DNA from: a virus
Strand: one strand, 5' to 3'
Length of the DNA stretch: 57,402 bases
Virus record (IMG/VR): IMGVR_UViG_3300046170_000427
Location: 1 to 57,402 of that record
Below, piece after piece: positions 27,917 to 54,610 of this stretch (position 1 is the stretch's first letter; each line of letters opens with the position of its first letter). Below the pieces are notes generated by a model. The model was not told where the DNA came from. It did no database searches and was given only the letters and a program-made list of their open reading frames with translations. Made by a program: the position numbers and the translations under genes.

Positions 27917-28765
27917 ATGGCTCAACCATCAACTAGAGCGGAGTTAGTAGACTACTGCAAAAGAAAGTTAGGTGCTCCTGTTCTCGAAATTAATGTTGCT
28001 GATGAGCAAATCGAGGACTTAGTTGATGATGCCATTCAATATTTTCACGAAAGACATTTCGATGGGGTAGGACAAGTATTTTTAAAATATCAAATAACTC
28101 AAGATGATATTAATAGAGGTAGAAGTCCCTCTTCATCGGTAACCCAAGCAGGTATTGTAACAACTACCGCTTCATCTACAATTGATGGTGCTTCTACAAC
28201 TTTCTCTTATAAAGAAAATAGCAATTATTTACAAATTCCTCCTTCTGTCATAGGAGTTAATAAGATATTTCAATTTTCCGGAGGAAATTCAATCACAAAC
28301 AATATGTTTAGTGTGAAATATCAATTATTCTTAAATGATGTTTATTTCTTCGGGAATACTGAATTGTTGTCATATGCCATGACAAAGACATATCTTGAAG
28401 ATCTTGATTTCTTACTGAATACTCATAAGCAGATAAGATTCAATCAACGAATGGATAGGTTATATCTTGATATTGACTGGGGAAGTGTTACTGCAGGAGA
28501 ATATATAATTATCGATTGTTTCAGAACTGTTGATCCAAACGATTTTGCAAGAGTTTACAATGACTCTTTCATCAAACCGTATCTGACTGCCCTAATTAAA
28601 CGTCAGTGGGGGCAGAATCTTATGAAGTTTCAAGGAGTTAAACTTCCTGGTGGAGTAGAACTAAACGGAAGACAAATTTATGAAGATGGACAGAATGATT
28701 TAGATAAAATCATGGAAAAAATGTCCAATACTTATGAACTTCCACCCCTTGACATGATAGGCTGA
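27917..28765 (+). CDS. 13: gp13-like neck protein
   Basis: A 282-residue homologue of T4 gp13 (309 aa), a head-completion protein that forms the neck ring under the portal. The family start is unmistakable: MAQPSTRAELVDYCKRKLGA, then VLEINVADEQIEDLVDDAIQ (23-42) and YFHERHFDGVGQV (43-55). The C-terminal part (DWGSVTAGEYIIIDCFR; KRQWGQNLMKFQGV) is also conserved. Its stop overlaps the gp14 ATG by one base, so the two neck proteins are translationally coupled. Confidence 0.94.
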   Translation: MAQPSTRAELVDYCKRKLGAPVLEINVADEQIEDLVDDAIQYFHERHFDGVGQVFLKYQITQDDINRGRSPSSSVTQAGIVTTTASSTIDGASTTFSYKENSNYLQIPPSVIGVNKIFQFSGGNSITNNMFSVKYQLFLNDVYFFGNTELLSYAMTKTYLEDLDFLLNTHKQIRFNQRMDRLYLDIDWGSVTAGEYIIIDCFRTVDPNDFARVYNDSFIKPYLTALIKRQWGQNLMKFQGVKLPGGVELNGRQIYEDGQNDLDKIMEKMSNTYELPPLDMIG

Positions 28766-30162
28766 TGGTATTAAATCCTTTTTTCTTACAAGGTTCTCAA
28801 GGAGAGCAAAATCTCGTTCAAGATTTGATCAATGAACAGTTGAGAATGTATGGTGTTGAGGTATTTTACTTACCAAGACAATATGCAACAAAAAGTTCAA
28901 TAATTCGTGAAGTAATTGAATCAGAATTTAATCAATCATATCCTATTGAGGCATATGTTGATAATTTTGATGGATATGGTGATAATACTGTCCTTTTATC
29001 AAAATTTGGAATTCAACAAACATCTGAAATTAAATTAATTATTTCTCAAGAAAGATTTGAAACGTATATTACACCTTTAATCACAAATTTACCTCTCATT
29101 GAACTCGCGACTCGTCCGAAAGAGGGCGATTTAATTTATTTCCCACTTGGAGACAGACTTTTTGAGATAAAATTTGTTGAACATGAGAAACCTTTTTATC
29201 AGTTACAAAAAAATTACGTTTACGAATTAACCTGTGAACTATTCAGAGGGGAAGATGAAATATTGGATACTGGTATTGAAGAAATCGATGATTCCTTCGA
29301 CACTGAGGGAAATATCAGATCTCTCACTCTTATCGGATCAGGTTCTACCGCAACCGCTATCTCTGGAAGAGTTGAAAGCGGAGCTATCAGCAGGATCATT
29401 ATTACAAACAGAGGAGAAAAATATAATTATCCACCCAGCGTTTTTATTTCATCTCCTATATCAGGAACCACAGCAACTGGAATATCTACCCTACGTGACG
29501 ATATTATTAATTGTGATGGAACAGAAATAGGTTCCGTTGTTCAAGGAGTTATGATGATTGATCCTGGTGCAGGATATACTGCAAATCCGGGAATTGCATT
29601 TGTTGGCGTTAACACTAATCCTGGTGTTGGAGCAGCTGCAACCACTAGAATTTCTGACAATACTGTTGGTATTGTAACTGTTACCAGTGGAGGTGGTGGA
29701 TATGTGACTGCTCCTACTGTTACCTTTAGTAGTCCAGGTGCTGGTGGAACGACTGCTACTGGTGTCGCTGTGGTTTCTGTTGCTGGAACAGTTTCTGCAA
29801 TTTATATCACCAATGCTGGTGCTGGGTATACAACTGCTCCTACAATTACACTTTCAGATCCACCTGCTGCCGGAGTTGGAACATTTGTTAGATCGGAAAC
29901 TATTACCGGATCTACAAGCGGTGTAACGGGAATAGTTAAGACGTGGAATACTATTACTAACGTTCTAACTTACTCTAATACTACAGGGGACTTCTTACCT
30001 GGAGAGACTATTGTGGGTTCGGCAAGTAGTGCATCTTATGTGATAAGTGTTTATGAGGATGATAACACAGTAAATAATTATCCAGACAATGATACATTTG
30101 AAACTTTTGCTAATGATGGGGTTTTAGATTTCTCAGAATCAAATCCATTTGGGAATCCTTAA
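28765..30162 (+). CDS. 14: gp14-like neck protein with a beta-repeat insertion
   Basis: A 465-residue neck protein; T4 gp14 is 256. The first 175 residues match the cyanophage gp14 core: LNPFFLQGSQGEQNLVQDLI, GVEVFYLPRQY, KPFYQLQKNYVYELTCELF, and FRGEDEILDTGIEEID. Residues about 178-420 are an extra region with several copies of a glycine-tyrosine beta motif (DPGAGYTANPG; SGGGGYVTAPTV; NAGAGYTTAPTI). A short acidic tail ending ESNPFGNP follows. The neck function (joining head to tail with gp13) comes from the core; the insertion may decorate the neck surface. It is coupled to gp13 and followed by a late promoter. Confidence 0.9.
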   Translation: MVLNPFFLQGSQGEQNLVQDLINEQLRMYGVEVFYLPRQYATKSSIIREVIESEFNQSYPIEAYVDNFDGYGDNTVLLSKFGIQQTSEIKLIISQERFETYITPLITNLPLIELATRPKEGDLIYFPLGDRLFEIKFVEHEKPFYQLQKNYVYELTCELFRGEDEILDTGIEEIDDSFDTEGNIRSLTLIGSGSTATAISGRVESGAISRIIITNRGEKYNYPPSVFISSPISGTTATGISTLRDDIINCDGTEIGSVVQGVMMIDPGAGYTANPGIAFVGVNTNPGVGAAATTRISDNTVGIVTVTSGGGGYVTAPTVTFSSPGAGGTTATGVAVVSVAGTVSAIYITNAGAGYTTAPTITLSDPPAAGVGTFVRSETITGSTSGVTGIVKTWNTITNVLTYSNTTGDFLPGETIVGSASSASYVISVYEDDNTVNNYPDNDTFETFANDGVLDFSESNPFGNP

Positions 30163-30191: not shown

Positions 30192-31200
30192 ATGTTTGAA
30201 TACTTTTACCATGAAATCTTAAGACGAACGATTATTGCGTTCGGAAGTCTTTTTAATGGGATTGATATTAAGCATCTCGACTCCGCTGGTAATGTATCCG
30301 AAGAGATTAAAGTACCTTTAGCATACGGGCCAACTCAAAAGTTTTTAGCAAGATTAGAGCAATCGCCAGATCTTAACAAACCAACAGCGATTACTCTTCC
30401 AAGAATGTCCTTTGAATTTACAGGACTGCAATATGATGGTACAAGAAAAGTTACCACTACTCAAACATTCAAAACACAGACTGTAGGTATTGCAACGGCA
30501 ATCAGAAAAAACTATATGCCCGTTCCATATAATATGTCATTTGAATTATCAATATTCACTAAGTTGAATGATGATATGCTTCAGATTGTTGAACAGATTT
30601 TACCATATTTTCAACCAGCTTACACACTTTCAGTAAATTTAGTTGATACTATTGGAGAAAAGAGAGATATTCCTATCGTGATCGAAAATATCACAATGCA
30701 AGATGATTACGAAGGGAACTATAGCACACGACGTTCACTTCTTTACACTATAAGATTCACTGCCAAAACATACCTTTTCGGCCCCAGTTGGAGATACTTC
30801 AAAAGCATCAAGGGATCTTATCAAAAAAGTACAAGTTGGATATGTTCAAGACGATTCTTCTGCGCCAACCAGAGATCTTACATATACCGTTGTTCCAAGA
30901 GCAACACAAAGTTATACCGGTAATGTTGTAACAAACTTAGCACAAGATATTGGTACAATGACTAATATCATACAAGTTACTGATGCAAATAACATTGCAG
31001 AAAACACATATATTAATATCAATAACGAATCAATATACGTAGATAGAAAGGAAGGAAATACTCTTTTTACAAAAAGAGGACAGGATGGAACCATCACTGG
31101 ATCACATGTTCGTGGAACTGCAGTTAATGTTATCACTGATGCTGATGATGCCCTTATTGAGATTGGCGATGACTTCGGATTCGATGGTGCGGTATCATGA
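30192..31200 (+). CDS. 15: gp15-like tail terminator, broken by one frameshift
   Basis: The tail sheath stabiliser and completion protein, about 335 residues when joined (T4 gp15 is 272). It opens MFEYFYHEILRRTIIAFGSL and contains the conserved stretches VPLAYGPTQKFLAR (41-54) and NYMPVPYNMSFELSIFTK. gp15 caps the sheath and tube and docks the tail to the neck. The frame from 30192 shifts after AKTYLFGP at 30782-30785. The correct continuation (VGDTSKASRDLIKKVQVGYV) runs to 31200, with 1008 corrected bases. The C-terminal part (30958-31200) carries a cyanophage-style extension. ATGA overlaps the gp16 start. Confidence 0.88.
30782..30785 (+). other. Frameshift site: extra C in CCCC (gp15)
   Basis: With four Cs the frame reads FGPSWRYFKS and drifts to a stop at 30923. 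With three it reads FGPVGDTSKASRD and stays open to 31200. Confidence 0.8.
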
Positions 31201-31627: not shown

Positions 31628-31957
31628 ATGGCAGTACCTGCAGTAAACATAGAAATTGAACAAGGTGCAGACTTTACTTCAACCTTTACTATTACGAATA
31701 GTGATGGTTCCGTGTTTAATATGAGCAGTGCTAGTGCTGTTGCGAAAGCAAAAAAGCATCCTACTGCAGGAACAGCATATACTTTTTCTACTTCCATTGA
31801 ATCTTCAACTGGAAAAATTACTATTTCCATGACTGATGAGACTACAGCAACAATGGAATCAGGAAGATATCTTTATGATATCTTGTTGACTGCAGCGGGT
31901 GGTGATAAAACAAGAGTCATTCAAGGAATGGCACTAGTTACAGCAGGTATATCATAA
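31628..31957 (+). CDS. Small virion protein, probable beta-sandwich (109 aa)
   Basis: A 109-residue protein starting MAVPAVNIEIEQGADFTSTF with alternating polar and hydrophobic strands, then SGRYLYDILLTAAGGDK and a final strand RVIQGMALV. This pattern matches a small phage structural family with an immunoglobulin-like or BppU-like fold, seen next to fibre genes. It has no cysteines and no membrane segment. Flanked by late promoters on both sides, so it is likely an abundant or separately tuned virion component. The role is inferred. Confidence 0.65.
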   Translation: MAVPAVNIEIEQGADFTSTFTITNSDGSVFNMSSASAVAKAKKHPTAGTAYTFSTSIESSTGKITISMTDETTATMESGRYLYDILLTAAGGDKTRVIQGMALVTAGIS

Positions 31958-39695: not shown

Positions 39696-42600
39696 ATGGC
39701 ATTTAATAGAGAACTTTCGCAATTTGCGAGTTATCTTGCCTTAGATGCTTCTGCTAACTATATTGGCATTACAACTGCCGTTTCGGCTAACGTAGGTATT
39801 GGTTCCGTTACACCAAGACAAAAGTTAGACGTTACAGGCAATGCTATTGTTTCTGGCATAACAACCTCCTCTGGAGGATTTGTTGGCGATTTAACAGGAA
39901 CAGCGACTAACGCAGAAGGATTAACAGGCACTCCAAGTGTGACTGTAAATACAGTCACGGCATCACATATAAACAGTTCAGGTATTATATCTGCTACCAA
40001 CTTTGTTGCTACGCAGGGTACAATGAATATTACCGGTAATGTTACCGGTACAGCAACTACAGCCACTAATGCTGAAGGACTGACTGGAACTCCTAGTATT
40101 ACTGTTGAAGATATTAGTGGAACTGGCAATATTAATATTGCCGGAATTGTTACTGCAAATGCATTTGTCGGAGACGGTTCTGGACTGACTGGTGTTGCAT
40201 CTACTGATAATATTCAGACTGCAACTCCTGCTAATTTCTTAAGCACTGTCAGAATTACTGGCATCACAACAGTTGGAGTTGTAACGGGTGGTACATCCGT
40301 TTCTGCAACGAACATCTATGGAATTCATAATGGTAACGTAATTGGTGACGTTACTGGTAATTCTTCTTCTGCAACTGCTCTGGCGAATGCTAGAACAATT
40401 GGCGGAGTATCCTTCGATGGTACAGGAAACATCAACCTTCCTGGTGTAAACGAAGCAGGTACTCAGGATACTTCAGGTAATGCTGCTACAGCAACTGCTC
40501 TGGCGAATGCTAGAACAATTGGTGGTGTAAGTTTTGACGGTACATCTAACATCAACCTTCCTGGTGTAAACCAAGCAGGTAATCAGAATACATCTGGCAA
40601 TGCTGCTACAGCAACTGCTCTCGCAAACGCTAGAACACTTGGTGGTGTTTCCTTCGATGGTACTGGAGACATTAACTTACCTGGTGTAAACGCAACAGGT
40701 AATCAAGATACTTCTGGTAACGCTGCTACCGCAACTGCATTAGCAACGGGACGTAATTTCACTGTATCTGGTGATGCGACAACCGATTCTGCACAATCAT
40801 TTGATGGTACAGGTAATGTCGCTCTCCCAATAACACTGGCTAATAGCGGTGTTTCCGCAGCAACTTATGGTTCTTCGTCCGCAGTTCCAATCCTTACTGT
40901 TGACGCAAAGGGACGCATTACATCTGCAACTACAGCCGCTGTAGGAAGTGGATTAACCGTAACTGGTGATAGTGGATCTGAGGACATTAATCTTCTTTCT
41001 GAAGGTTTAGCGATTACAGGTGGAACAAACCTTACTTCCGCTGCCGCAAGCAATGGAGTCGCAGTTTCACTGAATCCAGAGATTGCTCTTACTAGTGTAA
41101 GTGCAACTGGTGTTGTAACAGCAACTTCATTCCACACTGGCGCTGCTGGAGCGGCAATTCAAGTCAACTCTGCAACGATTACCGGCCCTTCATCAATTAC
41201 AATTGATCCTTCCGCTATTGGTGATAACACTGGTACGGTTCACATCTTAGGTGATCTTCAAGTAGAAGGAACTACAACAACTATTGACAGTACAACTGTT
41301 AATATTGCTGATAAGAATATCCAGATTGCAACTGGTGCTGCTAATGATGCTGCTGCTGATGGTGGTGGTATTACGGTTGACTCCGGTGATGGCGATAAGA
41401 CATTCCAGTTTGAAGCAACTGGAGACAACTTCGGTTCTTCCGAAAACATGAACCTTGCCAATGGCAAAGTTTATAAGGTTAATAATGCTGAAATTCTGAG
41501 TGCAACTACTCTGGGATCTAGTGTTGTCAACTCCTCATTGACATCTGTTGGAACTCTTGATTCACTTAACGTTGCTGGCGCACTGACTGGTTCCCATGTC
41601 AATGCTTCTGGAATCGTTACTGCTTCTTCATTCAGTGGTTCTGGTTCAGGACTGTCTGCGGGAACAACTCCTCTGACAACTCTGGATATTGATGGTGGTA
41701 CTGATATTGGAGCAGATCTTGTTGATGCTGATCTGATTGTTGTTGACGACGGTGCTGGTGGAACTAACCGCAAGGCAGCAATGTCTCGCGTTAAGGAATA
41801 TGTTCTCGGTGGTGGTTCTGGAGGTAACTTCGAGCAACTCAAAGTAACTGGTATTTCCACTCTTGGACAAGCAACAGCAACTGGACTCGTAGTTTCTGGT
41901 GTTACAACCGCAACTGGTGGTGTTGTCGGTGATGTAACCGGCGATTTAACTGGTAATGCTTCAACAGCAACCACATTAGAAACTGCCAGAACAATCGGTG
42001 GAGTTTCCTTCGATGGTTCAGGTAACATCAACCTTCCTGGTGTAAACCAAGCTGGTAACCAAGATACTTCCGGAAATGCTGCTACAGCAACTGCATTAGC
42101 AACAGGACGCAATTTTACAGTTTCTGGAGATGCTACAACTGATTCTGCACAATCATTTGATGGTTCAGGAAATGTAGCGTTACCAATCACTCTTGCTAAC
42201 AGTGGTGTTTCTGCAGCGACTTATGGTTCTTCATCTGCAGTTCCCGTAATTACAGTTGATGCCAAAGGACGTATTACTTCCGCAACAACTACTGCCGTTG
42301 GTAGTGGATTAACTGTCGCTGGTGATAGTGGTTCTGAAGATATCAATCTTCTGTCTGAAACCTTAACAATCTCTGGCGGTACTAACCTCACATCAGCAGC
42401 TGCTGGTAATGCTGTTACTGTTAATCTGAATCCTGAGATTGCTCTGACAAGCGCCTCTGCTTCTGGTGTTATCACGGCATCTGGTGGGTTTGTTGGTGCT
42501 CTTACTGGTAATGTTACTGGTGACGTATCAGGTGACGCTGGTGGTAATGCCGCTACAGCAACTGCTCTTGAGTCTGCTAGAACTATCGGCGGAGTTTCCT

Positions 42601-45600
42601 TTGATGGTACAGGAAACATTAACCTTCCTGGTGTAAACCAAGCTGGTAACCAAGATACTTCCGGAAATGCTGCTACAGCAACTCAATTAGCAACATCTAG
42701 AACTTTAGCAATCTCCGGAGATGCTACAGGTTCCGCATCATTTGATGGTTCTGCTAACGCTACTATTTCAGCGACTCTCGCTAACAGTGGTGTTTCTGCA
42801 GCGACTTATGGTTCTTCATCTGCAGTTCCCGTAATTACAGTTGATGCTAAGGGACGCATCACTTCCGCAACAACTACTGCCGTTGGTAGTGGACTGACAG
42901 TTGCTGGAGATACTGGTTCTGAAGATATCAATCTTCTGTCTGAAACCTTAACAATCTCTGGTGGCACTAACCTCACTTCAAATGCTTCAAGTAACTCTGT
43001 TACTGTTAACTTAGACGACAATATCTCCCTAACGAGTGTTGTTGCTTCTGGTGTTGTAACTGCTTCCAGTGGATTTGTAGGTGATGTAACCGGTAATGCA
43101 TCCTCTGCTACTATTCTGCAGAATGCTAGAACTATCGGTGGAGTTTCCTTCAATGGTTCTGCTAACATCAACCTTCCAGGCGTAAACCAAACTGGTAACC
43201 AAGATACCTCTGGTAATGCTGCTACTGCAACTGCTCTGGCAAACGGTAGAAGTTTCACTGTAAGTGGAGATGCTACAACTGATTCTGCACAATCATTCGA
43301 TGGTACAGGAAACGTTGCTCTGCCAATTACTCTTGCTGCTAGTGGTGTTTCCGCTGCAACTTATGGTTCTGGATCTGCTGTTCCTGTAATCACAGTTGAT
43401 GCTAAGGGACGTATCACTTCCGCAACAACAGCTGCTGTTGGTACTGCCTTGACAGTAACCGGCGATAGTGGTTCTGAGGATATTAATTTCGGTTCTGAAA
43501 GTTTATCGATTACAGGTGGAACTAACGTTACCTCTGCTGCTGCAAGTAATGGTGTTGAACTGTCACTGGATCCCGATGTTTCTCTGACATCATTAGTCGC
43601 ATCTGGTGTTGTAACTGCTACATCATTTAAGACTGGTGCTGAAGGATCTGCGATCCACGTTAATACAGCAACAATTACAGGCCCTTCATCAATTACCATT
43701 GATCCTGCCGCTATCGGCAATGCAACTGGTACGGTTCACATCTTAGGCGATCTTCAAGTCGAAGGTACAACTACTACAATTGATAGCACAACTGTTACAA
43801 TTGCAGATAAAAACATTCAAATCGCTACCGGCGCTGCGAATGATGCTGCCGCTGATGGTGGTGGTATTACAGTTGACTCTGGTGACGGAGACAAGACATT
43901 CCAATTTGAAGCAACTGGAGACAACTTCGGTTCTTCTGAGAACATGAATCTTGCCTCTGGTAAGGTATACAAGATTAACAATACAGAAGTTCTGGGTGCT
44001 ACATCACTTGGTTCTGCAGTTGTTACTTCTTCACTGACATCCGTTGGAACTCTTGGATCACTGACTGTATCTGGAGCTCTGGTTGGTTCTCATGCTGCTC
44101 TGTCTGGAGTTACAACTTCTACAGGTGGTTTCGTTGGTGCATTAACTGGTAACGTAACTGGTAATGCTGATAGTGCAACTGCTCTGCAGAATGCTAGAAC
44201 TATCGGTGGAGTTTCCTTCGATGGTACTGCCAATATCAACTTACCTGGTGTAAACCAAACTGGTAACCAAGATACCTCTGGTAATGCTGCTACTGCAACT
44301 GCACTTGAGACTGCTAGAACTATTGGTGGAGTTTCCTTTGATGGTTCTGCAAATATAAGTCTCCCTGGTGTAAACCAATCTGGTAACCAAGATACCTCAG
44401 GAAACGCTGCAACAGCAACTGCTCTTGCAAACGCTAGAACAATTGGTGGTGTCTCCTTCGATGGTACTGCTAATATCGATCTTCCTGGCGTAACCCAATC
44501 TGGTAACCAGGACACTTCTGGAACTGCTGCTCTCGCACAGGGATTAACTGGTACACCTAACGTAACTGTTAATGCAGTCACATCTGCACATGTTGCAAAC
44601 TCTGGTGTTACTACCTCTACAGGTGGTTTCGTAGGTAATGTTCAGGGTAACATCAACTCTACAGGACTTTCTACAGTCACTAATCTGGAAGTTGATGGTT
44701 ATGTCTCCATCGGAGATACCACTGGAGATATGAACCAAGTTCTGTCTTCTGTTGGTACTGGTGTAACTTGGAGAAGCATCACTGATGTTCTTCCTCAAAC
44801 CAGAACTACTCAGACAAGCACAGCAACTGCTGGACAGACTACATTCTCGTTCACTTATAACGTTAACTACCTTGACGTATTCGTCAACGGTGTTAAACTG
44901 TCTAGTTCTGAACTGACTGCAACTAATGGAACTTCAGTTGTAATTAGCGAAGCTCTCTTCGAGGGAGATATTGTTGAATTCCATTCTTATGCAACTGCCG
45001 GTGCTGGATCGGGTACTGTTTCTAGTGCTAATGATCTTTCTGATGTTACCCTTTCAAGTGCATCAAATAACGACATTCTCGTTTACAACGGATCAGCATT
45101 TGTTAATCAACAAGCTCTGAACCTTTCTGGTAACATTGCTGCTGCAGATCTCACTCTGTCTGGCAACTTAACAGTTAATGGTACAACTACAACTCTGAAT
45201 ACTGCAACACTTGATGTTGAAGATAAGAACCTCACTCTCGCTAAGGGATCTGGTTCCTCTGCTAACGCTGATGGTGCTGGTATCACTATCGATGGTGCTG
45301 ATGCTACCTTCAATTATTCTCACACTGGAACTAAGTTTGTTGCTAACAAGTCTATTGAAGCGACTTCATTCATTGGAGACGGTTCTGGACTGACTGGTGT
45401 TGCTTCTACTGACAACATCCAAACTGCAACTGAAGCAGAATTCCTTAGTGGAGTTAAGATTGCTGGTGTTACAACCGCAACTGGTGGTATTGTTGGTGAT
45501 CTTACTGGTGATGTAACTGGTAATGTTTCTGGCAATGCTGGAACTGCAACCATCCTTGCAAACGCTAGAACAATCGGTGGAGTATCCTTCGATGGTTCTG

Positions 45601-46511
45601 CTGGTATTAACCTGCCTGGTGTTAACGCATCTGGTACTCAGGATACCTCCGGAAATGCTGCAACTGCAACTGCTCTGGAAACTGCTAGAAACATTGGTGG
45701 AGTTTCCTTCAATGGTTCTGCTAATATCAACCTTCCTGGTGTAAACGAGGCAGGTAACCAGAATACAACTGGTACTTCTGCTGGACTTACTGGAACACCT
45801 AGTATTACTGTTAATGCGATTAATTCTTCGCATATCAACAGTTCTGGTATTATCACTGCTACTTCATTCTCTGGAGATGGTTCTGGATTGACTGGTGTTG
45901 CCTCTACTGACAACATCTCTACCAACACTGTAGCAAACTTCCTGAGTGGAATTACTGTTGCTGGTGTCACAACTGCTACTAACCAGCTCGTACTTGAAAG
46001 TGATGATGGCACTCCAGGAAGAATGGATTTCTATTGCGAGTCCAGTAATGCTCACTATACCAGAATCCAGTCTGCTGCACACGGTTCTTACAGCGGTAAT
46101 GTCACTGTTACATTACCAGTTGTTTCCGGTACAGTTATCGTTGGTGGTGCTGTAACAAACACCGCAGATATTACCACAAGCGGTGATATTTCTGCTACTA
46201 ACTTCAACTCCACATCTGATATAACACTTAAGGATAATGTTTCACTTATCGACAATGCGCTCGATATGATTAACAACCTTGAGGGTATCAGCTGGAATTG
46301 GAAGCATGATGGTAAGGCATCTCTGGGTGTATCTGCTCAGAATGTTGAAACTGTTGCTCCTGAACTAGTTTCTAATGGATCTCATAAGGCTGTTAACTAT
46401 AACGGACTTATCGGTATCCTGATTGAGGCAGTTAAGGAACAAGGTAATCAGATTACCGAACTTCGCACTGAACTTGCTAAAAAAGCAAATTCAAGAAAAA
46501 AGCGTAGTTGA
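39696..46511 (+). CDS. Giant repeat-built tail fibre with C-terminal S74 chaperone (2271 aa)
   Basis: A 2271-residue fibre. N-terminus MAFNRELSQFASYLALDASA is shared in part with the 46550 gene. The shaft has at least eleven copies of a 40-residue unit (NARTIGGVSFDG...INLPGVNQAGNQDTSG pattern), four copies of ATYGSSSAVP/VDAKGRITSATT, and two copies of an ADKNIQIATGAANDAAADGG segment. Near 44800-45000 a TATAGQTTF/VFVNGVKLSSSEL module occurs. The C-terminus is a peptidase S74 intramolecular chaperone: SDITLKDN (S2174), GISWNWK, GVSAQNVETVAPELV, NYNGLIGILIEAVKEQ, then a coiled coil. S74 domains trimerise the fibre and cut themselves off at the Ser-Asp. It is probably a long receptor-binding fibre. 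Confidence 0.85.
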   Translation: MAFNRELSQFASYLALDASANYIGITTAVSANVGIGSVTPRQKLDVTGNAIVSGITTSSGGFVGDLTGTATNAEGLTGTPSVTVNTVTASHINSSGIISATNFVATQGTMNITGNVTGTATTATNAEGLTGTPSITVEDISGTGNINIAGIVTANAFVGDGSGLTGVASTDNIQTATPANFLSTVRITGITTVGVVTGGTSVSATNIYGIHNGNVIGDVTGNSSSATALANARTIGGVSFDGTGNINLPGVNEAGTQDTSGNAATATALANARTIGGVSFDGTSNINLPGVNQAGNQNTSGNAATATALANARTLGGVSFDGTGDINLPGVNATGNQDTSGNAATATALATGRNFTVSGDATTDSAQSFDGTGNVALPITLANSGVSAATYGSSSAVPILTVDAKGRITSATTAAVGSGLTVTGDSGSEDINLLSEGLAITGGTNLTSAAASNGVAVSLNPEIALTSVSATGVVTATSFHTGAAGAAIQVNSATITGPSSITIDPSAIGDNTGTVHILGDLQVEGTTTTIDSTTVNIADKNIQIATGAANDAAADGGGITVDSGDGDKTFQFEATGDNFGSSENMNLANGKVYKVNNAEILSATTLGSSVVNSSLTSVGTLDSLNVAGALTGSHVNASGIVTASSFSGSGSGLSAGTTPLTTLDIDGGTDIGADLVDADLIVVDDGAGGTNRKAAMSRVKEYVLGGGSGGNFEQLKVTGISTLGQATATGLVVSGVTTATGGVVGDVTGDLTGNASTATTLETARTIGGVSFDGSGNINLPGVNQAGNQDTSGNAATATALATGRNFTVSGDATTDSAQSFDGSGNVALPITLANSGVSAATYGSSSAVPVITVDAKGRITSATTTAVGSGLTVAGDSGSEDINLLSETLTISGGTNLTSAAAGNAVTVNLNPEIALTSASASGVITASGGFVGALTGNVTGDVSGDAGGNAATATALESARTIGGVSFDGTGNINLPGVNQAGNQDTSGNAATATQLATSRTLAISGDATGSASFDGSANATISATLANSGVSAATYGSSSAVPVITVDAKGRITSATTTAVGSGLTVAGDTGSEDINLLSETLTISGGTNLTSNASSNSVTVNLDDNISLTSVVASGVVTASSGFVGDVTGNASSATILQNARTIGGVSFNGSANINLPGVNQTGNQDTSGNAATATALANGRSFTVSGDATTDSAQSFDGTGNVALPITLAASGVSAATYGSGSAVPVITVDAKGRITSATTAAVGTALTVTGDSGSEDINFGSESLSITGGTNVTSAAASNGVELSLDPDVSLTSLVASGVVTATSFKTGAEGSAIHVNTATITGPSSITIDPAAIGNATGTVHILGDLQVEGTTTTIDSTTVTIADKNIQIATGAANDAAADGGGITVDSGDGDKTFQFEATGDNFGSSENMNLASGKVYKINNTEVLGATSLGSAVVTSSLTSVGTLGSLTVSGALVGSHAALSGVTTSTGGFVGALTGNVTGNADSATALQNARTIGGVSFDGTANINLPGVNQTGNQDTSGNAATATALETARTIGGVSFDGSANISLPGVNQSGNQDTSGNAATATALANARTIGGVSFDGTANIDLPGVTQSGNQDTSGTAALAQGLTGTPNVTVNAVTSAHVANSGVTTSTGGFVGNVQGNINSTGLSTVTNLEVDGYVSIGDTTGDMNQVLSSVGTGVTWRSITDVLPQTRTTQTSTATAGQTTFSFTYNVNYLDVFVNGVKLSSSELTATNGTSVVISEALFEGDIVEFHSYATAGAGSGTVSSANDLSDVTLSSASNNDILVYNGSAFVNQQALNLSGNIAAADLTLSGNLTVNGTTTTLNTATLDVEDKNLTLAKGSGSSANADGAGITIDGADATFNYSHTGTKFVANKSIEATSFIGDGSGLTGVASTDNIQTATEAEFLSGVKIAGVTTATGGIVGDLTGDVTGNVSGNAGTATILANARTIGGVSFDGSAGINLPGVNASGTQDTSGNAATATALETARNIGGVSFNGSANINLPGVNEAGNQNTTGTSAGLTGTPSITVNAINSSHINSSGIITATSFSGDGSGLTGVASTDNISTNTVANFLSGITVAGVTTATNQLVLESDDGTPGRMDFYCESSNAHYTRIQSAAHGSYSGNVTVTLPVVSGTVIVGGAVTNTADITTSGDISATNFNSTSDITLKDNVSLIDNALDMINNLEGISWNWKHDGKASLGVSAQNVETVAPELVSNGSHKAVNYNGLIGILIEAVKEQGNQITELRTELAKKANSRKKRS
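40384..40743 (+). repeat. Three tandem 120-base units in the large fibre gene
   Basis: Three head-to-tail 120-base copies encode 40-residue units (anchors at 40384, 40504 and 40624). At least eight more single or grouped copies occur downstream (near 42000, 42590, 43140, 44205, 44320, 44440, 45580 and 45700). The first two differ mainly at wobble positions, so they are kept apart by drift but conserved in protein. Confidence 0.75.
41161..41490 (+). repeat. Long direct repeat in the fibre gene, first copy (second at 43657-43986)
   Basis: About 330 bases recur at a constant offset of 2496 bases with no gap. Both encode the stretch with TITGPSSITIDP, VHILGDLQVEGTTTTIDSTT and TVDSGDGDKTFQFEATGDNF. 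Many differences are synonymous. The repeat is a whole shaft module, not a mobile element. Confidence 0.75.
43657..43986 (+). repeat. Long direct repeat in the fibre gene, second copy
   Basis: Partner of 41161-41490. The same module is present in shorter, more diverged form near 45220 of this gene and near 49900 in the 49560 gene (DDKTIVIASGAADSSAADGA). Confidence 0.75.
45931..46440 (+). repeat. C-terminal fibre module, first copy (second at 50239-50748)
   Basis: This segment aligns without gaps to 50239-50748 in the 49560 gene (offset 4308). It spans a beta domain and the S74 chaperone. One stretch of more than 50 bases (from AGTGATGATGGCACTCC to the codon for AH) is identical, far closer than the rest, which suggests gene conversion or recent exchange. 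Confidence 0.7.
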
Positions 46512-46549: not shown

Positions 46550-47245
46550 ATGGCACGCGGTAGGGAACTATCTCAGTTAGGATCATTAATTACAGTTGAT
46601 GATTCTACAAAAAACATAGGGGTAGCAACTGCTACCCCTTCCCAAAAAATTGGTATAGGAACTTTATCCCCAACCTCCAAAGTAGAGGTGGTTGGGGATG
46701 TTTCTATATCTGGAGTTTTAACCGCAACATCTTTTAGTGGAGATGGTTCTGGACTTAGTAATGTTCCTGGCACAGGCGGGTTGTCTAATGTTGTTGAAGA
46801 CACAACACCTGAATTAGGTGGAAGTTTAGATGTAAATGGGAAAGATATAACTGGTACTGGAAATGTAAATATTACTGGTATTGTAACCACCACTGAACTT
46901 TCTCTATCAAATACATCAACCGCGAATAGAAAAGCACTTGTAGGTTCTTGGACAGCAACTGCTGGTATTTTAACGAGTATTGATACTATTACAACATCAG
47001 ACTTTAAGACAATTGAATATACTCTACACATAGAAAATAGTGTTGGTATTCAAGCTCAGAAAGTATTAGTATCGAGATCTGGAACGACTCCATATTCACA
47101 AGAATATGCGATCATGTATAGTTCAGATCTATTAGTATCGATTGGATCATCATATACTGGAGGCAATTATTATCTCAATGCAACACCAGAAACAGGAATA
47201 TCTGGCGTTACAACATATAATTTTGTAAGAGAAATAATGAGTTAA
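46550..47245 (+). CDS. Small fibre-type virion protein with non-S74 C-terminal domain (231 aa)
   Basis: A 231-residue protein. The N-terminus (MARGRELSQLGSLITVDDST; IGIGTLSPTSKVEVVGDVSI) parallels the large fibre start (MAFNRELSQF; VGIGSVTPRQKLDV), so the two are paralogous at this end. One shaft module follows (VLTATSFSGDGSGLSNVPGT). The C-terminal domain (about 130-231; DFKTIEYTLHIENSVGIQAQ, then KVLVSRSGTTPYSQEYAIMY and ATPETGISGVTTYNFVREIM) is a cap I recognise from other cyanophage structural proteins. It shares a transcript with the subtilase. That adjacency makes it a candidate anchor for the protease. Confidence 0.75.
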   Translation: MARGRELSQLGSLITVDDSTKNIGVATATPSQKIGIGTLSPTSKVEVVGDVSISGVLTATSFSGDGSGLSNVPGTGGLSNVVEDTTPELGGSLDVNGKDITGTGNVNITGIVTTTELSLSNTSTANRKALVGSWTATAGILTSIDTITTSDFKTIEYTLHIENSVGIQAQKVLVSRSGTTPYSQEYAIMYSSDLLVSIGSSYTGGNYYLNATPETGISGVTTYNFVREIMS

Positions 47246-47246
47246 T

Positions 47247-49172
47247 ATGAAAACAGAAGTAAATGAATTAGGAAGAGTCATTGTTGTTAATGAGGTTTCC
47301 TCCGATGAACCTCAGGCTTACACTGTTTGCGTAAAAAATTCAGAAGATTGGTTAGAAATACACGATTACATTATTAATGAAAACGAAATTGATGGTATCC
47401 CAAACAGGAGAATAACCTGCATTTCTCCTATGAATTGCTCTTCAAAGAGATCTGTATATGAGATGTCTCAAGAAGAATCTGAGATTCTGAGACAGAATGA
47501 AAAAGTGGATTGGGTTGTTTTATCTTCAATGCATAATCCAATTGTTCTTGAGCAGAGAAAGCATGACGAAGAGTTTGATAGACTTATCGATACTAATAGA
47601 TTTAAAGAAAATATATCAAACTTGAGAACAAATTCAGATCCTGGATCAACATTAAATTTTACTCAATGGGGATTGTCACGTCATTCTAAATCTTCAAATG
47701 AATTTGTAGGAGTTAATACATCATCATTAAGTGAGGATATTTCATATTCATTATCAGGTAAAAATGTTGATGTTGTTATAATGGATACTGGTGTTCGTTG
47801 GGATCACCCGGACTTTTTATTATCACAATACACATCAGTTCCTGTTGGAGTATCTACTGAGTCAGTCAGCAGAGTAAGAGATATATTAATTCATGGACAA
47901 GATAATTATGGAATTAATTGGGCATCACACGGATTAGTTGCTCCTGGATCTGGAACTTTAACAAATTATACGATTGATAATGTTCTTGGATCTTCTTCAT
48001 TTAATGGATCATGGCATGGTAGTCATGTTGCTGGAACAGCAGCAGGTAATCAATTCGGTGCAGCATTTCAGGCAAACATATGGAGTATAGCGTGCATTGA
48101 TCGTACTGATGTAGGATTCTCGAATGCTGCTGATGGATTTGATTATATAAGAGTATGGCATAAAAATAAACCGGTAAATCCAGTAACTGGAAGAAAAAAT
48201 CCAACTATTGTTAATGGAAGTTGGGGATATCGACAATTCGTTATAGGAAACAATCCTACAGGTTATGCATATAATGCAACTTTCAGAGGAACATCATATC
48301 CTGGAACTGATATTTTATCTAGTAATAGTTTTCTTCCAGCAGTTTATTACATGGATCTTCTGCAATATCTAACTTATGACAATGGTAACCCTGTTCAGTG
48401 GTTTGATTTTACATCCAAACATGCAACAGCACAATCAACAACTGATGAGTTATTTGATGACTCGGATTGTGATGATATAATTGTAGTATTTTCTGCTGGC
48501 AATTCTGGAAATAGTAATGGAAAACAGGACTTACCAGGCGGAGATGATTATGATAACGAATTTACATCAGGATATCTTTTTTATGGAAATCAATTTTCCG
48601 AATCATTTGGATCAGTTGATGAATATTTTAATCGATCAGGTACTCCAGCAATTTCTCATCAAGGACAATCTGATGCACCCATAATAGTAGGATCTTTAGA
48701 TTCTTTTGTTTATACCACAGGAATATCCTCCGAAAGAAAATCTAGTTTTTCAAATACTGGCCCAGCAATTGATGTATGGGCTGCTGGATCCACAATCTTG
48801 AGTCCCTATAATACTGGACACTCTGATCCTAGAAATAGTAATTTTAATAATGGTTTTTTAAATGGAACAAGTATGGCAGCACCTAATACTTGTGGCGTTA
48901 TTGCTTGTTATTTGGAATCAAATCCATCAGCAACAAGAGTGGATGCTCGTGATTGGTTATTTAATCATGGATCTGTTCTTGTAGATGAATTATTATATGA
49001 TAGATATGGAGATACAGATCCAGTTGGTGCAGGAACTTCTGTAAATTATTGGAGTGATTCATATGGATTAAAGGGAGCTACTCCGAGAGTTCTTTATAAT
49101 CCTTTTGCTAATAATACTGTTCCGAGTATTAGTGGGGTAAATATAACAGGCATCTCTTTCTCACAATCTTAA
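47247..49172 (+). CDS. Subtilisin-like serine protease (S8 family, 641 aa)
   Basis: A complete subtilase with all catalytic motifs: Asp in VVIMDTGVRWDHPDF (D180), His in GSWHGSHVAGTAAG (H257), oxyanion Asn in VVFSAGNSG (N419) and Ser in LNGTSMAAPNTCG (S542). Residues about 1-105 end in EEESEILRQNEKVDWV-like text (MSQEESEILRQNEKVDWV, 73-90), which resembles an inhibitor I9 propeptide. No signal peptide or membrane anchor is present, so it is cytoplasmic and likely virion-loaded. The ATG follows the 46550 stop after one base. The tail (about 620-641, SGVNITGISFSQS) is fibre-like and could dock to the virion. Neighbours are fibre genes on both sides. Possible roles: digestion of host surface protein, fibre maturation, or toxin. 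The target is unknown. Confidence 0.9.
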   Translation: MKTEVNELGRVIVVNEVSSDEPQAYTVCVKNSEDWLEIHDYIINENEIDGIPNRRITCISPMNCSSKRSVYEMSQEESEILRQNEKVDWVVLSSMHNPIVLEQRKHDEEFDRLIDTNRFKENISNLRTNSDPGSTLNFTQWGLSRHSKSSNEFVGVNTSSLSEDISYSLSGKNVDVVIMDTGVRWDHPDFLLSQYTSVPVGVSTESVSRVRDILIHGQDNYGINWASHGLVAPGSGTLTNYTIDNVLGSSSFNGSWHGSHVAGTAAGNQFGAAFQANIWSIACIDRTDVGFSNAADGFDYIRVWHKNKPVNPVTGRKNPTIVNGSWGYRQFVIGNNPTGYAYNATFRGTSYPGTDILSSNSFLPAVYYMDLLQYLTYDNGNPVQWFDFTSKHATAQSTTDELFDDSDCDDIIVVFSAGNSGNSNGKQDLPGGDDYDNEFTSGYLFYGNQFSESFGSVDEYFNRSGTPAISHQGQSDAPIIVGSLDSFVYTTGISSERKSSFSNTGPAIDVWAAGSTILSPYNTGHSDPRNSNFNNGFLNGTSMAAPNTCGVIACYLESNPSATRVDARDWLFNHGSVLVDELLYDRYGDTDPVGAGTSVNYWSDSYGLKGATPRVLYNPFANNTVPSISGVNITGISFSQS

Positions 49173-49559: not shown

Positions 49560-50780
49560 ATGGCAAATAGATTTCCACTGATTGTAGATTCGTCATCCAA
49601 TCAAATCAAAGAATTAGAAGCATCTGATAATATTGATTTAACAAACAGTGGTATCGTAAATGCCCAGTCAATTTCTGCTACCCACTTAAATCTTTCAGGT
49701 GTTGTTACTGCATCTTCTTTTTCTGGTAATGGATCAGGTTTAACGGGAGTTGCATCAACAGATAATATTCAGACAGCAACGTCAGCAAATTTTCTAAGCA
49801 ACGTCAACATTGCAGGAATAACAACCTGTCAAGCATTAACAGTTTCTGGTAATTTGACTGTTGATGGAACGACTACGACAATTAACTCAACTACACTAAC
49901 TGTTGATGATAAGACAATTGTAATTGCATCTGGTGCTGCAGATTCAAGTGCTGCAGACGGTGCGGGTATTAGTATTGATGGTGCGAGTGCTACAATTTTA
50001 TATTCTCACTCTGGAACAAAATTTGTATCCAATAAACCATTTGAAGCAACTTCATTCACAGGTAATGTTACCGGTACTTCCACAGGACTTTCTGGATCGC
50101 CTAGTATTACTGTTAATGCTGTAACTTCGTCGCATATCAATAGTTCTGGTATCATAACTGCATCCTCATTCTCAGGAGATGGATCTGGATTAACTGGTGT
50201 TAGTGCAGGATCAACGGATAACATTCAAACTACAACCGTAGCAAACTTCCTGGGTGGAATTACTGTTGCTGGTGTTACAACTACTACTAACCAGCTCGTG
50301 TTAGAAAGTGATGATGGCACTCCAGGAAGAATGGATTTCTATTGCGAGTCCAGTAATGCTCATTACACCAGACTGCAGTCTCAAGCACATGCTAATTATA
50401 GTGGTAATGTGACTGTCACATTACCAAAAGTCACTGGAACTGCTATTGTTGGCGGATCTAATTCTAACGATACAAATATCACCACATCTGGAGATGTTTC
50501 TGCTACTAACTTTAATTCTACATCGGATGTCACTTTGAAGCAAGATGTATCAGTAATTGATAATGCACTTGAAATGATTAGTCAACTTGAAGGTGTCAGT
50601 TGGAAATGGAAAGAGACACTCAAACCTTCTCTTGGCGTAACTGCACAGAATGTAGAGGAAGTTGCTCCAGAGTTAGTTTCAAATGGAGATCATAAGTCAG
50701 TCAACTATAATGGACTTATTGGTATCTTGATTGAAGCAGTTAAAGAATTAAAATCTGAGGTTGACGAGTTAAAAAGATAA
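49560..50780 (+). CDS. Second S74 tail fibre protein (406 aa)
   Basis: A 406-residue fibre starting MANRFPLIVDSSSNQIKELE. The shaft modules (VVTASSFSGNGSGLTGVAST; DDKTIVIASGAADSSAADGA) match those of the large fibre. The C-terminus is an S74 chaperone with SDVTLKQD (S322), GVSWKWK, GVTAQNVEEVAPELV and NYNGLIGILIEAVKEL, plus a short coiled coil. From residue 227 the gene is colinear with the end of the large fibre. It looks like a compact paralogue, perhaps an alternative or short receptor-binding fibre. Its stop codon lies inside the next late promoter. Confidence 0.85.
   Translation: MANRFPLIVDSSSNQIKELEASDNIDLTNSGIVNAQSISATHLNLSGVVTASSFSGNGSGLTGVASTDNIQTATSANFLSNVNIAGITTCQALTVSGNLTVDGTTTTINSTTLTVDDKTIVIASGAADSSAADGAGISIDGASATILYSHSGTKFVSNKPFEATSFTGNVTGTSTGLSGSPSITVNAVTSSHINSSGIITASSFSGDGSGLTGVSAGSTDNIQTTTVANFLGGITVAGVTTTTNQLVLESDDGTPGRMDFYCESSNAHYTRLQSQAHANYSGNVTVTLPKVTGTAIVGGSNSNDTNITTSGDVSATNFNSTSDVTLKQDVSVIDNALEMISQLEGVSWKWKETLKPSLGVTAQNVEEVAPELVSNGDHKSVNYNGLIGILIEAVKELKSEVDELKR
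50239..50748 (+). repeat. C-terminal fibre module, second copy
   Basis: Partner of 45931-46440, same length and no gap. See that entry for the identical core. Confidence 0.7.
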
Positions 50781-52951: not shown

Positions 52952-54610
52952 ATGAGTGATAATGTATATCTTGGCAATCCTAATCTAAAAAAAGCAAATA
53001 CGCCGATTGAGTTTACTGAAGAACAAATCATTGAGTTTGTTCAATGTCAACGAGATCCGGTTTATTTCGCTAATAAGTATGTAAAAATTGTTAGTTTGGA
53101 TGAAGGACTTGTATCATTCAGTCCATATCGCTTTCAAGAAAAGTTAATCAACAACTTTCATGAGAATAGATTTAACATCTGTAAGATGCCGCGACAGACT
53201 GGCAAAAGTACTACAGTTGTCTCTTATCTTCTTCACTATGCGATTTTCAATGACAGTGTTAACATTGGCATACTTGCTAACAAAGCAGCAACAGCTAGGG
53301 AACTTTTAGGCAGATTACAAACTGCATATGAGAATCTACCTAAATGGATGCAGCAGGGTATAATGGTATGGAACAAAGGTTCTTTGGAGTTAGAGAATGG
53401 CAGTAAGATATTGGCAGCTTCTACGTCTGCGAGTGCTGTCCGAGGTATGTCATTTAACATCCTCTTTCTCGACGAGTTCGCGTTTGTCCCAAATCACATT
53501 GCTGACTCGTTCTTTGCATCTGTTTATCCTACTATTACTTCTGGTAAAAACACCAAAGTAATTATCGTATCTACCCCACATGGTATGAATCACTTCTACC
53601 GTATGTGGAGTGATGCCGAAAAAGGAAAGAATGAATATATTCCAACTGATGTTCACTGGAGTGAAGTTCCAGGAAGAGATGATGCATGGAAAGAACAAAC
53701 CATTGCAAACACTTCAGAGCAACAATTTAAGATTGAGTTTGAGTGTGAGTTCTTAGGATCGATTGACACATTAATCGCTGCAAGTAAATTAAAATCTCTA
53801 GTATATGATAATCCTCTAAAATCAAATGCAGGATTAGATGTATATGAAGAACCACAGAAAAATCATGATTATTTAATTACAGTTGATGTAGCAAGAGGTG
53901 TGGGTGAAGATTATTCTGCATTTATATGTGCTGATATTACATCTTTCCCACATAAAATAGTCGCAAAGTATAAAAATAATGATATCAAACCGATGTTATT
54001 TCCTAACATCATATATGAAGTAGCAAAAAATTATAATAGTGCATATATTCTTTGTGAAGTAAATGATGTTGGTGATCAGGTAGCATCACTACTTCACTAT
54101 GATCTTGAATATCAGAATGTTTTGATGTGCTCTATGAGAGGTAGAGCAGGACAAGTAGTTGGACAAGGTTTCTCCGGTAAGAAAACTCAATTGGGAGTTA
54201 AGATGTCCAAGACTGTCAAGAAAGTTGGAGCACTCAATCTCAAGACAATGATTGAAGAGAATAAACTTCTTTTCAATGACTTAGATATTATATCAGAACT
54301 TACCACATTTATTTCAAAGAACAATTCATTTGAAGCAGAAGATGGTTGTCATGATGACTTAGCAATGTGTCTTGTCATTTATGCATGGTTAGTTGCTCAA
54401 GACTATTTTAAAGAACTCACCGATCAGGATATTAGAAAACGACTTTACGAAGAGCAGAAAAATCAAATCGAACAAGACATGGCACCCTTTGGATTCATGG
54501 ATGACGGACTTGGTGAAGAAAGTTTTACAGATGACGAAGGTGAAAGATGGTTTAATACATCTGAATATGGAGAAACTGCTGGTGGTATGGATTATATGTG
54601 GAAGTACTAA
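52952..54610 (+). CDS. 17: gp17-like large terminase subunit
   Basis: A 552-residue terminase ATPase/nuclease (T4 gp17 is 610). Walker A reads MPRQTGKST (79-87, K85), Walker B ILFLDEFAF (170-178, D174 and E175), and coupling motif STPHG (207-211). The RNase H-like nuclease begins LITVDVARGVGEDYS (308-322, D312) and its last acidic site is in DGCHDDLAM. gp17 pumps DNA into the prohead through the portal and cuts at headful length. Its stop overlaps the next ATG (TAATG). In T4, gp16 and gp17 are adjacent; here a 21-kb block separates them. Confidence 0.95.
   Translation: MSDNVYLGNPNLKKANTPIEFTEEQIIEFVQCQRDPVYFANKYVKIVSLDEGLVSFSPYRFQEKLINNFHENRFNICKMPRQTGKSTTVVSYLLHYAIFNDSVNIGILANKAATARELLGRLQTAYENLPKWMQQGIMVWNKGSLELENGSKILAASTSASAVRGMSFNILFLDEFAFVPNHIADSFFASVYPTITSGKNTKVIIVSTPHGMNHFYRMWSDAEKGKNEYIPTDVHWSEVPGRDDAWKEQTIANTSEQQFKIEFECEFLGSIDTLIAASKLKSLVYDNPLKSNAGLDVYEEPQKNHDYLITVDVARGVGEDYSAFICADITSFPHKIVAKYKNNDIKPMLFPNIIYEVAKNYNSAYILCEVNDVGDQVASLLHYDLEYQNVLMCSMRGRAGQVVGQGFSGKKTQLGVKMSKTVKKVGALNLKTMIEENKLLFNDLDIISELTTFISKNNSFEAEDGCHDDLAMCLVIYAWLVAQDYFKELTDQDIRKRLYEEQKNQIEQDMAPFGFMDDGLGEESFTDDEGERWFNTSEYGETAGGMDYMWKY

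Follow-up and report, generated by a model that had tools for sequence, protein, structure and literature searches.

The fibre gene and its surroundings

The window (the whole stretch of DNA analysed, a virus record of 57402 bases) is a contig of a T4-like cyanophage, an ocean virus of cyanobacteria, and its terminase (52952-54610) shares 86% protein identity with that of Synechococcus phage S-SM2. A single ORF of 2271 aa occupied positions 39696-46511 on the plus strand, the strand of all modules and fibre-like neighbours described below. Structural genes surround this ORF, with a tail sheath stabilizer homolog (gp15 type, 30192-30923) on one side and the terminase (gp17) on the other. The gp15-gp17 interval measured ~22 kb in the window, compared with ~4.6 kb in S-SM2 and 6.6 kb in SynMITS9220M01. 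The g15-g18 hyperplastic region of cyanomyoviruses is marked by additional genes lying between gp15 and gp17/gp18 (accessible text of PMC2984593), and such genes were found in the window at 32307-52647. The ORF gave 23 PHROG matches, with 12 in the tail category, of which 10 were named tail fibre or long tail fibre subunit; two matches were head families, one was a baseplate wedge initiator, and nine were families of no known function.

Two further fibre-like genes lie downstream. The first (46550-47245, 231 aa) has a related N-terminus and one D unit (ORF list, module profiles); its counterpart at the orthologous locus L006 is 184 aa long, and the stretch absent there includes a D-like GDGSGL segment. 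The second (49560-50780, 406 aa) is another S74 fibre-like protein with one C unit, two D units and the same type of tip as the long fibre (module profiles, tip comparison). A subtilase gene (47247-49172, PF00082, E 1.1e-28) lies directly 3' of the fibre cluster and is kept in L006; a PF00082 gene adjoins tail-fibre-like genes in Prochlorococcus phage P-SSM2 too. Upstream, the gp14-like neck protein (28765-30162) matched tail fibre, baseplate and virion structural families with its C-terminal part as well. A 109-aa protein (31628-31957) matched phrog_3304, annotated ‘L-shaped tail fiber protein assembly’ (E 1.4e-24), and phrog_1084; judging from these matches, it is possibly a fibre assembly or attachment factor.

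The first-pass annotation had described a fibre assembled from nested repeats, and these repeats proved real, with 11 plain 40-residue units and four ATYGS blocks inside the one ORF. Module profiles found 15 A units (40 aa; 11 plain GGVSF units and four hybrids leading into a B block), four B blocks (ATYGS, 86 aa), three C blocks (DKNI, 98 aa, the third partial) and three D units (36 aa), together covering 1288 of the 2271 residues. The profiles were built from the copies in the window, L006 and L136, so the counts in these fibres are descriptive. The modules follow the order D-AAAA-B-C-x-AA-B-AA-B-AA-B-C-AAA-C-D-AA-D-tip-S74, and the plain units form arrays of 3, 1, 1, 1, 3 and 2.

The N-terminal segment (MAFNRELSQFA..., 39696-39890), conserved in an alignment and present in 29 viral contigs, is the presumed attachment end. 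It is followed by a block with a D unit (39965-40235), placed ~1.1 kb further downstream in L006 (nucleotide map, offset +1089), and by the first A array (40347-40829), which self-comparison, profiles and Tandem Repeats Finder resolved into three 40-aa GGVSF units and one hybrid. Next come B block 1 (40824-41081), C block 1 (DKNI/DGDKTF, 41187-41480) and a block without clear counterpart in L006 (41586-41930), whose best nucleotide match over fibre nt ~1890-2160 mostly stayed under 0.6. Profiles then placed plain and hybrid A units at 41943-42185, 42534-42758 and 43083-43325, leading into B blocks 2 (42180-42437), 3 (42768-43022) and 4 (43320-43577), respectively. This part includes a 585-nt (195-aa) cassette that is extra relative to L006 (42189-42773; nucleotide map and junction test), its exact ends blurred by the repeat. 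C block 2 (43683-43976) precedes an array of three 40-aa A units (44151-44510, Tandem Repeats Finder and profiles), a partial C block 3 (45147-45359), a D unit (GDGSGLTG, 45357-45464), an array of two A units (45522-45761) and a last D unit (45855-45962). The presumed tip segment (45963-46214) and the 98-aa Peptidase_S74 chaperone (46215-46508) end the protein. The name Phage_fiber_2 (PF03406) was rejected for the 40-residue unit, because there were no matches over the cut-off in the window; among 14 control genomes, PF03406 matched in E. coli only. The Pfam matches DUF6948, SMG1_N and PAS were discounted as below their cut-offs.

Repeat statistics, tip and chaperone

The repeats in the fibre gene far exceed chance. 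Over 240 nt, the best self-identity reached 0.83 at offset 120 and, with any codon-multiple offset allowed, 0.90, and the maxima of shuffled controls were 0.45 (40 codon shuffles, offset 120) and 0.48 (10 shuffles, any codon-multiple offset), respectively. Tandem Repeats Finder reported two 120-base arrays (40354-40738 and 44158-44531) with 0% indels. The first three units had been called exact 120-base tandems; this holds for the register but not for the sequence, as 120-nt windows starting at 40340-40500 were only 77-87% identical to the DNA 120 nt further on, with a longest exact match of 32 nt at that offset. Likewise, the 2496-base offset between repeats is real, and separates C blocks 1 and 2, but the homology runs over ~1 kb of A, B and C blocks (~40596 to 41600) instead of the ~330 bases first proposed; the most alike 330 bases at this offset lie at ~41136-41466.

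Paralogous plain A units of the window showed 68-83% DNA identity (55 pairs) and 68-90% protein identity, which argues that most repeats are not recent copies and that the A arrays are not being homogenised fast. In the unit comparison one row (L006_1545) was one residue out of register, and its identities and the L006 paralog mean were left out. The two copies of the 585-nt cassette in the window resembled each other more closely than the other repeats did, matching exactly at offset 585 over stretches of 68, 48 and 33 nt. No exact repeat within the ORF is longer than 68 nt, which is below the usual short-read length, and collapse of the assembly here, named as a risk in the first-pass annotation, is therefore unlikely.

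The C-terminal Peptidase_S74 domain (PF13884, residues 2174-2225) scored 46.1 bits against a cut-off of 22 (E 5.9e-12). Its serine, with a lysine five residues on (Ser2174 and Lys2179 in the window), was kept in 17/17 aligned rows, which include L123 (the same as L006) and the near-duplicates L137 and L150. By analogy with T5 pb1, the chaperone would cleave itself off at Ser2174, and the mature chain would have 2173 aa if cleavage occurs. The tip segment ahead of the chaperone was alike in the second S74 protein and in both L006 counterparts; conservation was not found in the more distant family members aligned. Four-taxon site patterns differed between the two segments, with 13 ortholog, 8 within-genome and 1 cross pattern for the tip versus 60, 0 and 1, respectively, for the chaperone (Fisher p 1.3e-5, sites treated as independent). 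This supports an exchange of the tip between the two S74 fibre genes of one genome. Homoplasy was considered as a source of the tip pattern, and the ratio of 8 within-genome to 1 cross pattern speaks weakly against it.

Matches to solved structures were limited to parts of the protein. The fibre C-terminus matched the distal subunit of a long tail fibre (6f45, E 8.4e-6). The hybrid A unit matched the C-terminal region of phage L Dec over 41 residues (PDB 6e3c, E 2.9e-8) and, weakly, a tail fibre named gp47 (8vbx, E 0.005). The first A array gave no good match among solved structures (best 3pet, E 0.61), and two AlphaFold predictions were poor (mean pLDDT 39.5 and 43.8). The shaft would be trimeric and beta-structured.

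Length variation among related fibres

The L006 locus has the same neighbours as the window (a 263-aa gene upstream; the 184-aa gene and the subtilase downstream), and the blocks flanking the fibre showed 92-98% DNA identity. The L006 fibre is 1862 aa long, 409 aa shorter than that of the window, with 10 versus 15 forty-residue units and three versus four ATYGS blocks, in the order AA-B-C-D-A-B-AA-B-C-AAA-C-D-AA-D-tip-S74. The earlier expectation that fibre length varies with repeat number is thus borne out in a relative, and repeat number is not constant across related phages. Aligned residues were 88% identical over 1842 positions, with 429 residues only in the window and 20 only in L006. 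Under another gap cost there were five gaps of at least 15 aa (+111, +80, -18, +40 and +195 aa).

The DNA at each gap junction was compared with the DNA one indel length away, using two nulls, one of random places and offsets and one of random places at the same offset. Junction repeat identity was 0.86, 0.94 and 0.56 for the 80-, 195- and 40-aa gaps, respectively. Against the random-offset null all three gaps lie on direct repeats, in agreement with the proposed length change by repeat recombination. The 40-aa junction was significant against this null (0.003) but not against the same-offset null (0.153), which left two gaps, those of 80 and 195 aa, on direct repeats. No junction repeat was found at the indel length for the 111-aa and 18-aa gaps. 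The 111-aa gap covers the block at 39965-40235, whose best L006 match sits ~1.1 kb downstream at 78-96% identity; therefore its position differs, not its content. The alignment pairs L006's copy of this relocated block with window ~41586-41930, the block lacking a clear L006 counterpart. A deletion in L006 fits the comparison as well as a gain in the window.

The N-terminal segment was followed through 56 loci, and MAFNRELSQFA was present in 29 of the 56. Thirteen of these 29 fibres were complete within the locus, two more (3720 and 5562 aa) were completed from fetched contigs, and 14 ran off the contig; a fourteenth closed ORF, L138, was dropped from the fibre set for its different start. With the window this gave 16 complete fibres with the same N-terminus and the S74 motif, two near-duplicates among them, with lengths of 663, 1727, 1750, 1784, 1831, 1833, 1862, 1890, 1952, 2005 (two), 2020 (two), 2271, 3720 and 5562 aa. 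The longest (L178, 33-16718) carries the same ends, and nine B blocks and six A units were detected in it.

Excluding the two longest, the remaining 14 complete fibres formed 18 pairs with more than 85% identity in the first 60 residues and more than 60% in the last 110. Length differed in 16/18 of these pairs, the two exceptions being the near-duplicates L136/L137 and L149/L150. In L130/L132 the 60-residue N-termini and 110-residue C-termini were identical and the lengths differed by 168 aa; their DNA pieces were 85-92% identical (blastn, reporting only pieces of at least 300 nt and at least 85% identity), so these two are not clones. Variation between clones, as first suggested, was not seen. 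No length variant occurred within three near-identical pairs, namely L006/L007 (99.87% over 9596 nt, compared as far as L007 reaches before its contig end cuts it at 1667 aa), L008/L009 (the contigs of L136/L137; 2 mismatches in 6018) and L149/L150 (99.0% identity), and each pair shared one architecture.

Within the fibre, L006 and L007 differed at 10/5001 positions, 8 of them inside 28 bp of an A unit (L006 9261-9288, fibre nt 4667-4694). The surrounding 66-nt tract of L006 agreed at 65/66 positions with a unit lying 1140 nt upstream in L006 itself, which fits conversion in L006. The L006 tract was also nearer to the window ortholog (56/66) than the L007 tract (51/66), and the L007 version was absent from every other locus compared (at most 3 mismatches, seed filter). 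From these patterns the tract is likely a trace of recombination with ambiguous donor and direction; misassembly could also have produced it.

The junction test covered 28 indels, each 15 aa or longer, from six pairs of fibres. At the 5% level, where ~1.4 would be expected, 11/28 indels had a junction repeat against the random-offset null, and 7/28 had one against the same-offset null; 17/28 and 21/28, respectively, were without a significant junction repeat. The six pairs overlap (L149 is in three and L146 in two), so the counts are not independent. Repeats as the mechanism of length change thus stand for a part of the indels, and fall short for the 17/28 and for the block in a different position. 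Unequal recombination between repeats probably accounts for some of the length change, the 80- and 195-aa differences from L006 among it, but not for most indels. Length variation is seen between lineages, not clones, and at least one further process acts besides the repeats.

Origin of the variation and relation to known systems

In our judgement the product of the gene is probably a modular tail fibre, belonging to a T4-like cyanophage, in which cassettes are gained and lost by repeat recombination, other blocks are swapped or moved, and the tip is exchanged. The constant N-terminal end would attach the fibre to the virion, and the shaft of interchangeable repeat cassettes would trimerise. 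From the motif and the T5 pb1 precedent, the S74 chaperone would drive trimerisation and then cut itself off at Ser2174, exposing the tip. Because the cassettes resemble one another and each spans a whole number of codons, unequal recombination could add or remove whole cassettes in frame, as the pattern between phages suggests. Other blocks may be swapped or moved without long flanking homology, probably via recombination with other fibre genes or phages, and site patterns support exchange of the tip segment with the second S74 fibre gene of the same genome. Fibre length and tip would thereby change between lineages, presumably under host-surface selection.

The main source of the cassette differences may instead be recombination among different phages, in which the internal repeats do no more than provide homology; we regard such mosaic exchange as a real possibility, though a somewhat doubtful one. 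The indels without a significant junction repeat, the relocated block, the window block without clear L006 counterpart and the L007 tract found in no other locus compared all point this way; DNA like the first A array was also present in 34/50,697 phage records (Escherichia, Aeromonas, Acinetobacter and cyanophages), so donors are common. However, the 80- and 40-aa differences amount to whole units and the 195-aa difference to a whole cassette, all with junction repeats, and the exact runs shared by the two 585-nt copies argue for recombination within the gene. That the length differences are artefacts of short-read assembly, with repeats collapsed or expanded, is very improbable. The repeats are numerous, and contig breakage near the start of the fibre gene is supported by contig ends within 600 bp of it (7/29 fibre-bearing contigs downstream versus 0/29 upstream, p 0.016); within 6 kb the counts were 14/29 and 8/29 (p 0.29, not significant). 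Against an artefact stand the 68-nt limit on exact repeats, the one open frame and both conserved ends kept by the complete fibres, and the architecture shared by the three near-identical pairs, whose contigs come from different IMG datasets, possibly of the same samples.

An improbable reading is that the long protein belongs to the baseplate or capsid and binds no receptor, its cassette number being neutral. The PHROG families of the head, the baseplate wedge and no known function fit it, as does the likeness between the hybrid A unit and Dec, which decorates capsids; the 10/23 matches to named tail fibre families speak against it, and so does the occurrence of an S74-type chaperone at the end of the T5 fibre pb1.

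For the modular tail fibre, the natural series of similar ends with different cassette counts shows in-frame length change of a huge fibre in uncultured ocean phages. The cells that a phage can enter are determined in part by its fibre genes, and these variants offer a set for asking if length matters to adsorption. Contigs from metagenomes are prone to end near where these fibre genes begin, which calls for caution. A bolder and rather unlikely extension is a length-tunable fibre family, in which the attachment end and the cleavable chaperone frame a shaft varying about eightfold through gained, lost and reshuffled cassettes, and length, along with the tips exchanged between a phage's two fibre genes, is selected, setting the reach through different cyanobacterial surface layers.

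The building blocks are widespread, with fibre protein matches in 442/50,697 phage records. An N-terminal search of the ‘phages’ collection returned 11 records, all below 60% identity, and no isolate with this fibre. Very long fibres are known: ORF85 of S-CREM2 spans 42559-57474 and is reported present in the virion proteome (accessible text of PMC10665884). In the literature search, cassette-number variation in cyanophage fibres was not named in the titles or abstract openings among the matches listed, the nearest being the S-TIM4 paper (PMC6224464).

The L-shaped fibre pb1 of T5 (1396 aa) is described as self-cleaving at Thr1263-Ser1264, with Ser1264 and Lys1269 proposed to cut the chaperone off (PMC4690869). 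Like the window fibre, pb1 is long and has a C-terminal intramolecular chaperone and a serine with a lysine five residues on, and its cleavage exposes the tip; a cassette array, however, is not mentioned for pb1 in the accessible text, and cleavage in the window is predicted from the motif (PMC4690869). The likeness to phage L is a single 41-residue match, and the three-stranded beta-helix modelled for Dec, a capsid decoration protein, is described by the authors themselves as speculative (accessible text of PMC6449081).

Closer to the variation itself, the tail fibres of Xanthomonas phages OP1, Xp10 and Xop411 are reported to differ by domain duplication or loss between related phages, with short repeats nearby and a link to host range, and the T4 tail fibre adhesin also shows domain duplication and loss (Tetart 1996, as cited in PMC2248197). 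In OP1 smaller domains within ~118 aa at the N-terminus are concerned, as far as the accessible text of PMC2248197 goes, whereas the cassettes make up much of the shaft of the window fibre. For the ltf locus of the T5-like phages DT57C/DT530, recombination between identical fibre-gene sequences is described as having caused an in-register deletion, but this took place between two genes, in a laboratory-passaged phage (accessible text of PMC4728585). In cyanophage S-TIM4, the fibre-related ORF108 (2235 aa) acquired 15 synonymous SNPs in 120 bp during laboratory evolution, for which the authors propose recombination with other regions (PMC6224464). Sequence comparison showed ORF108 to contain two blocks of the C type and a single stretch resembling the hybrid A region. 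It is similar in size to the window fibre but has a different N-terminus and, on visual inspection, no S74 motif, and length change is not mentioned for it in the accessible text of PMC6224464. Repeat-driven fibre change is thus already known in kind from T4, OP1, DT57C and S-TIM4, and the window fibre is a well-resolved further case.
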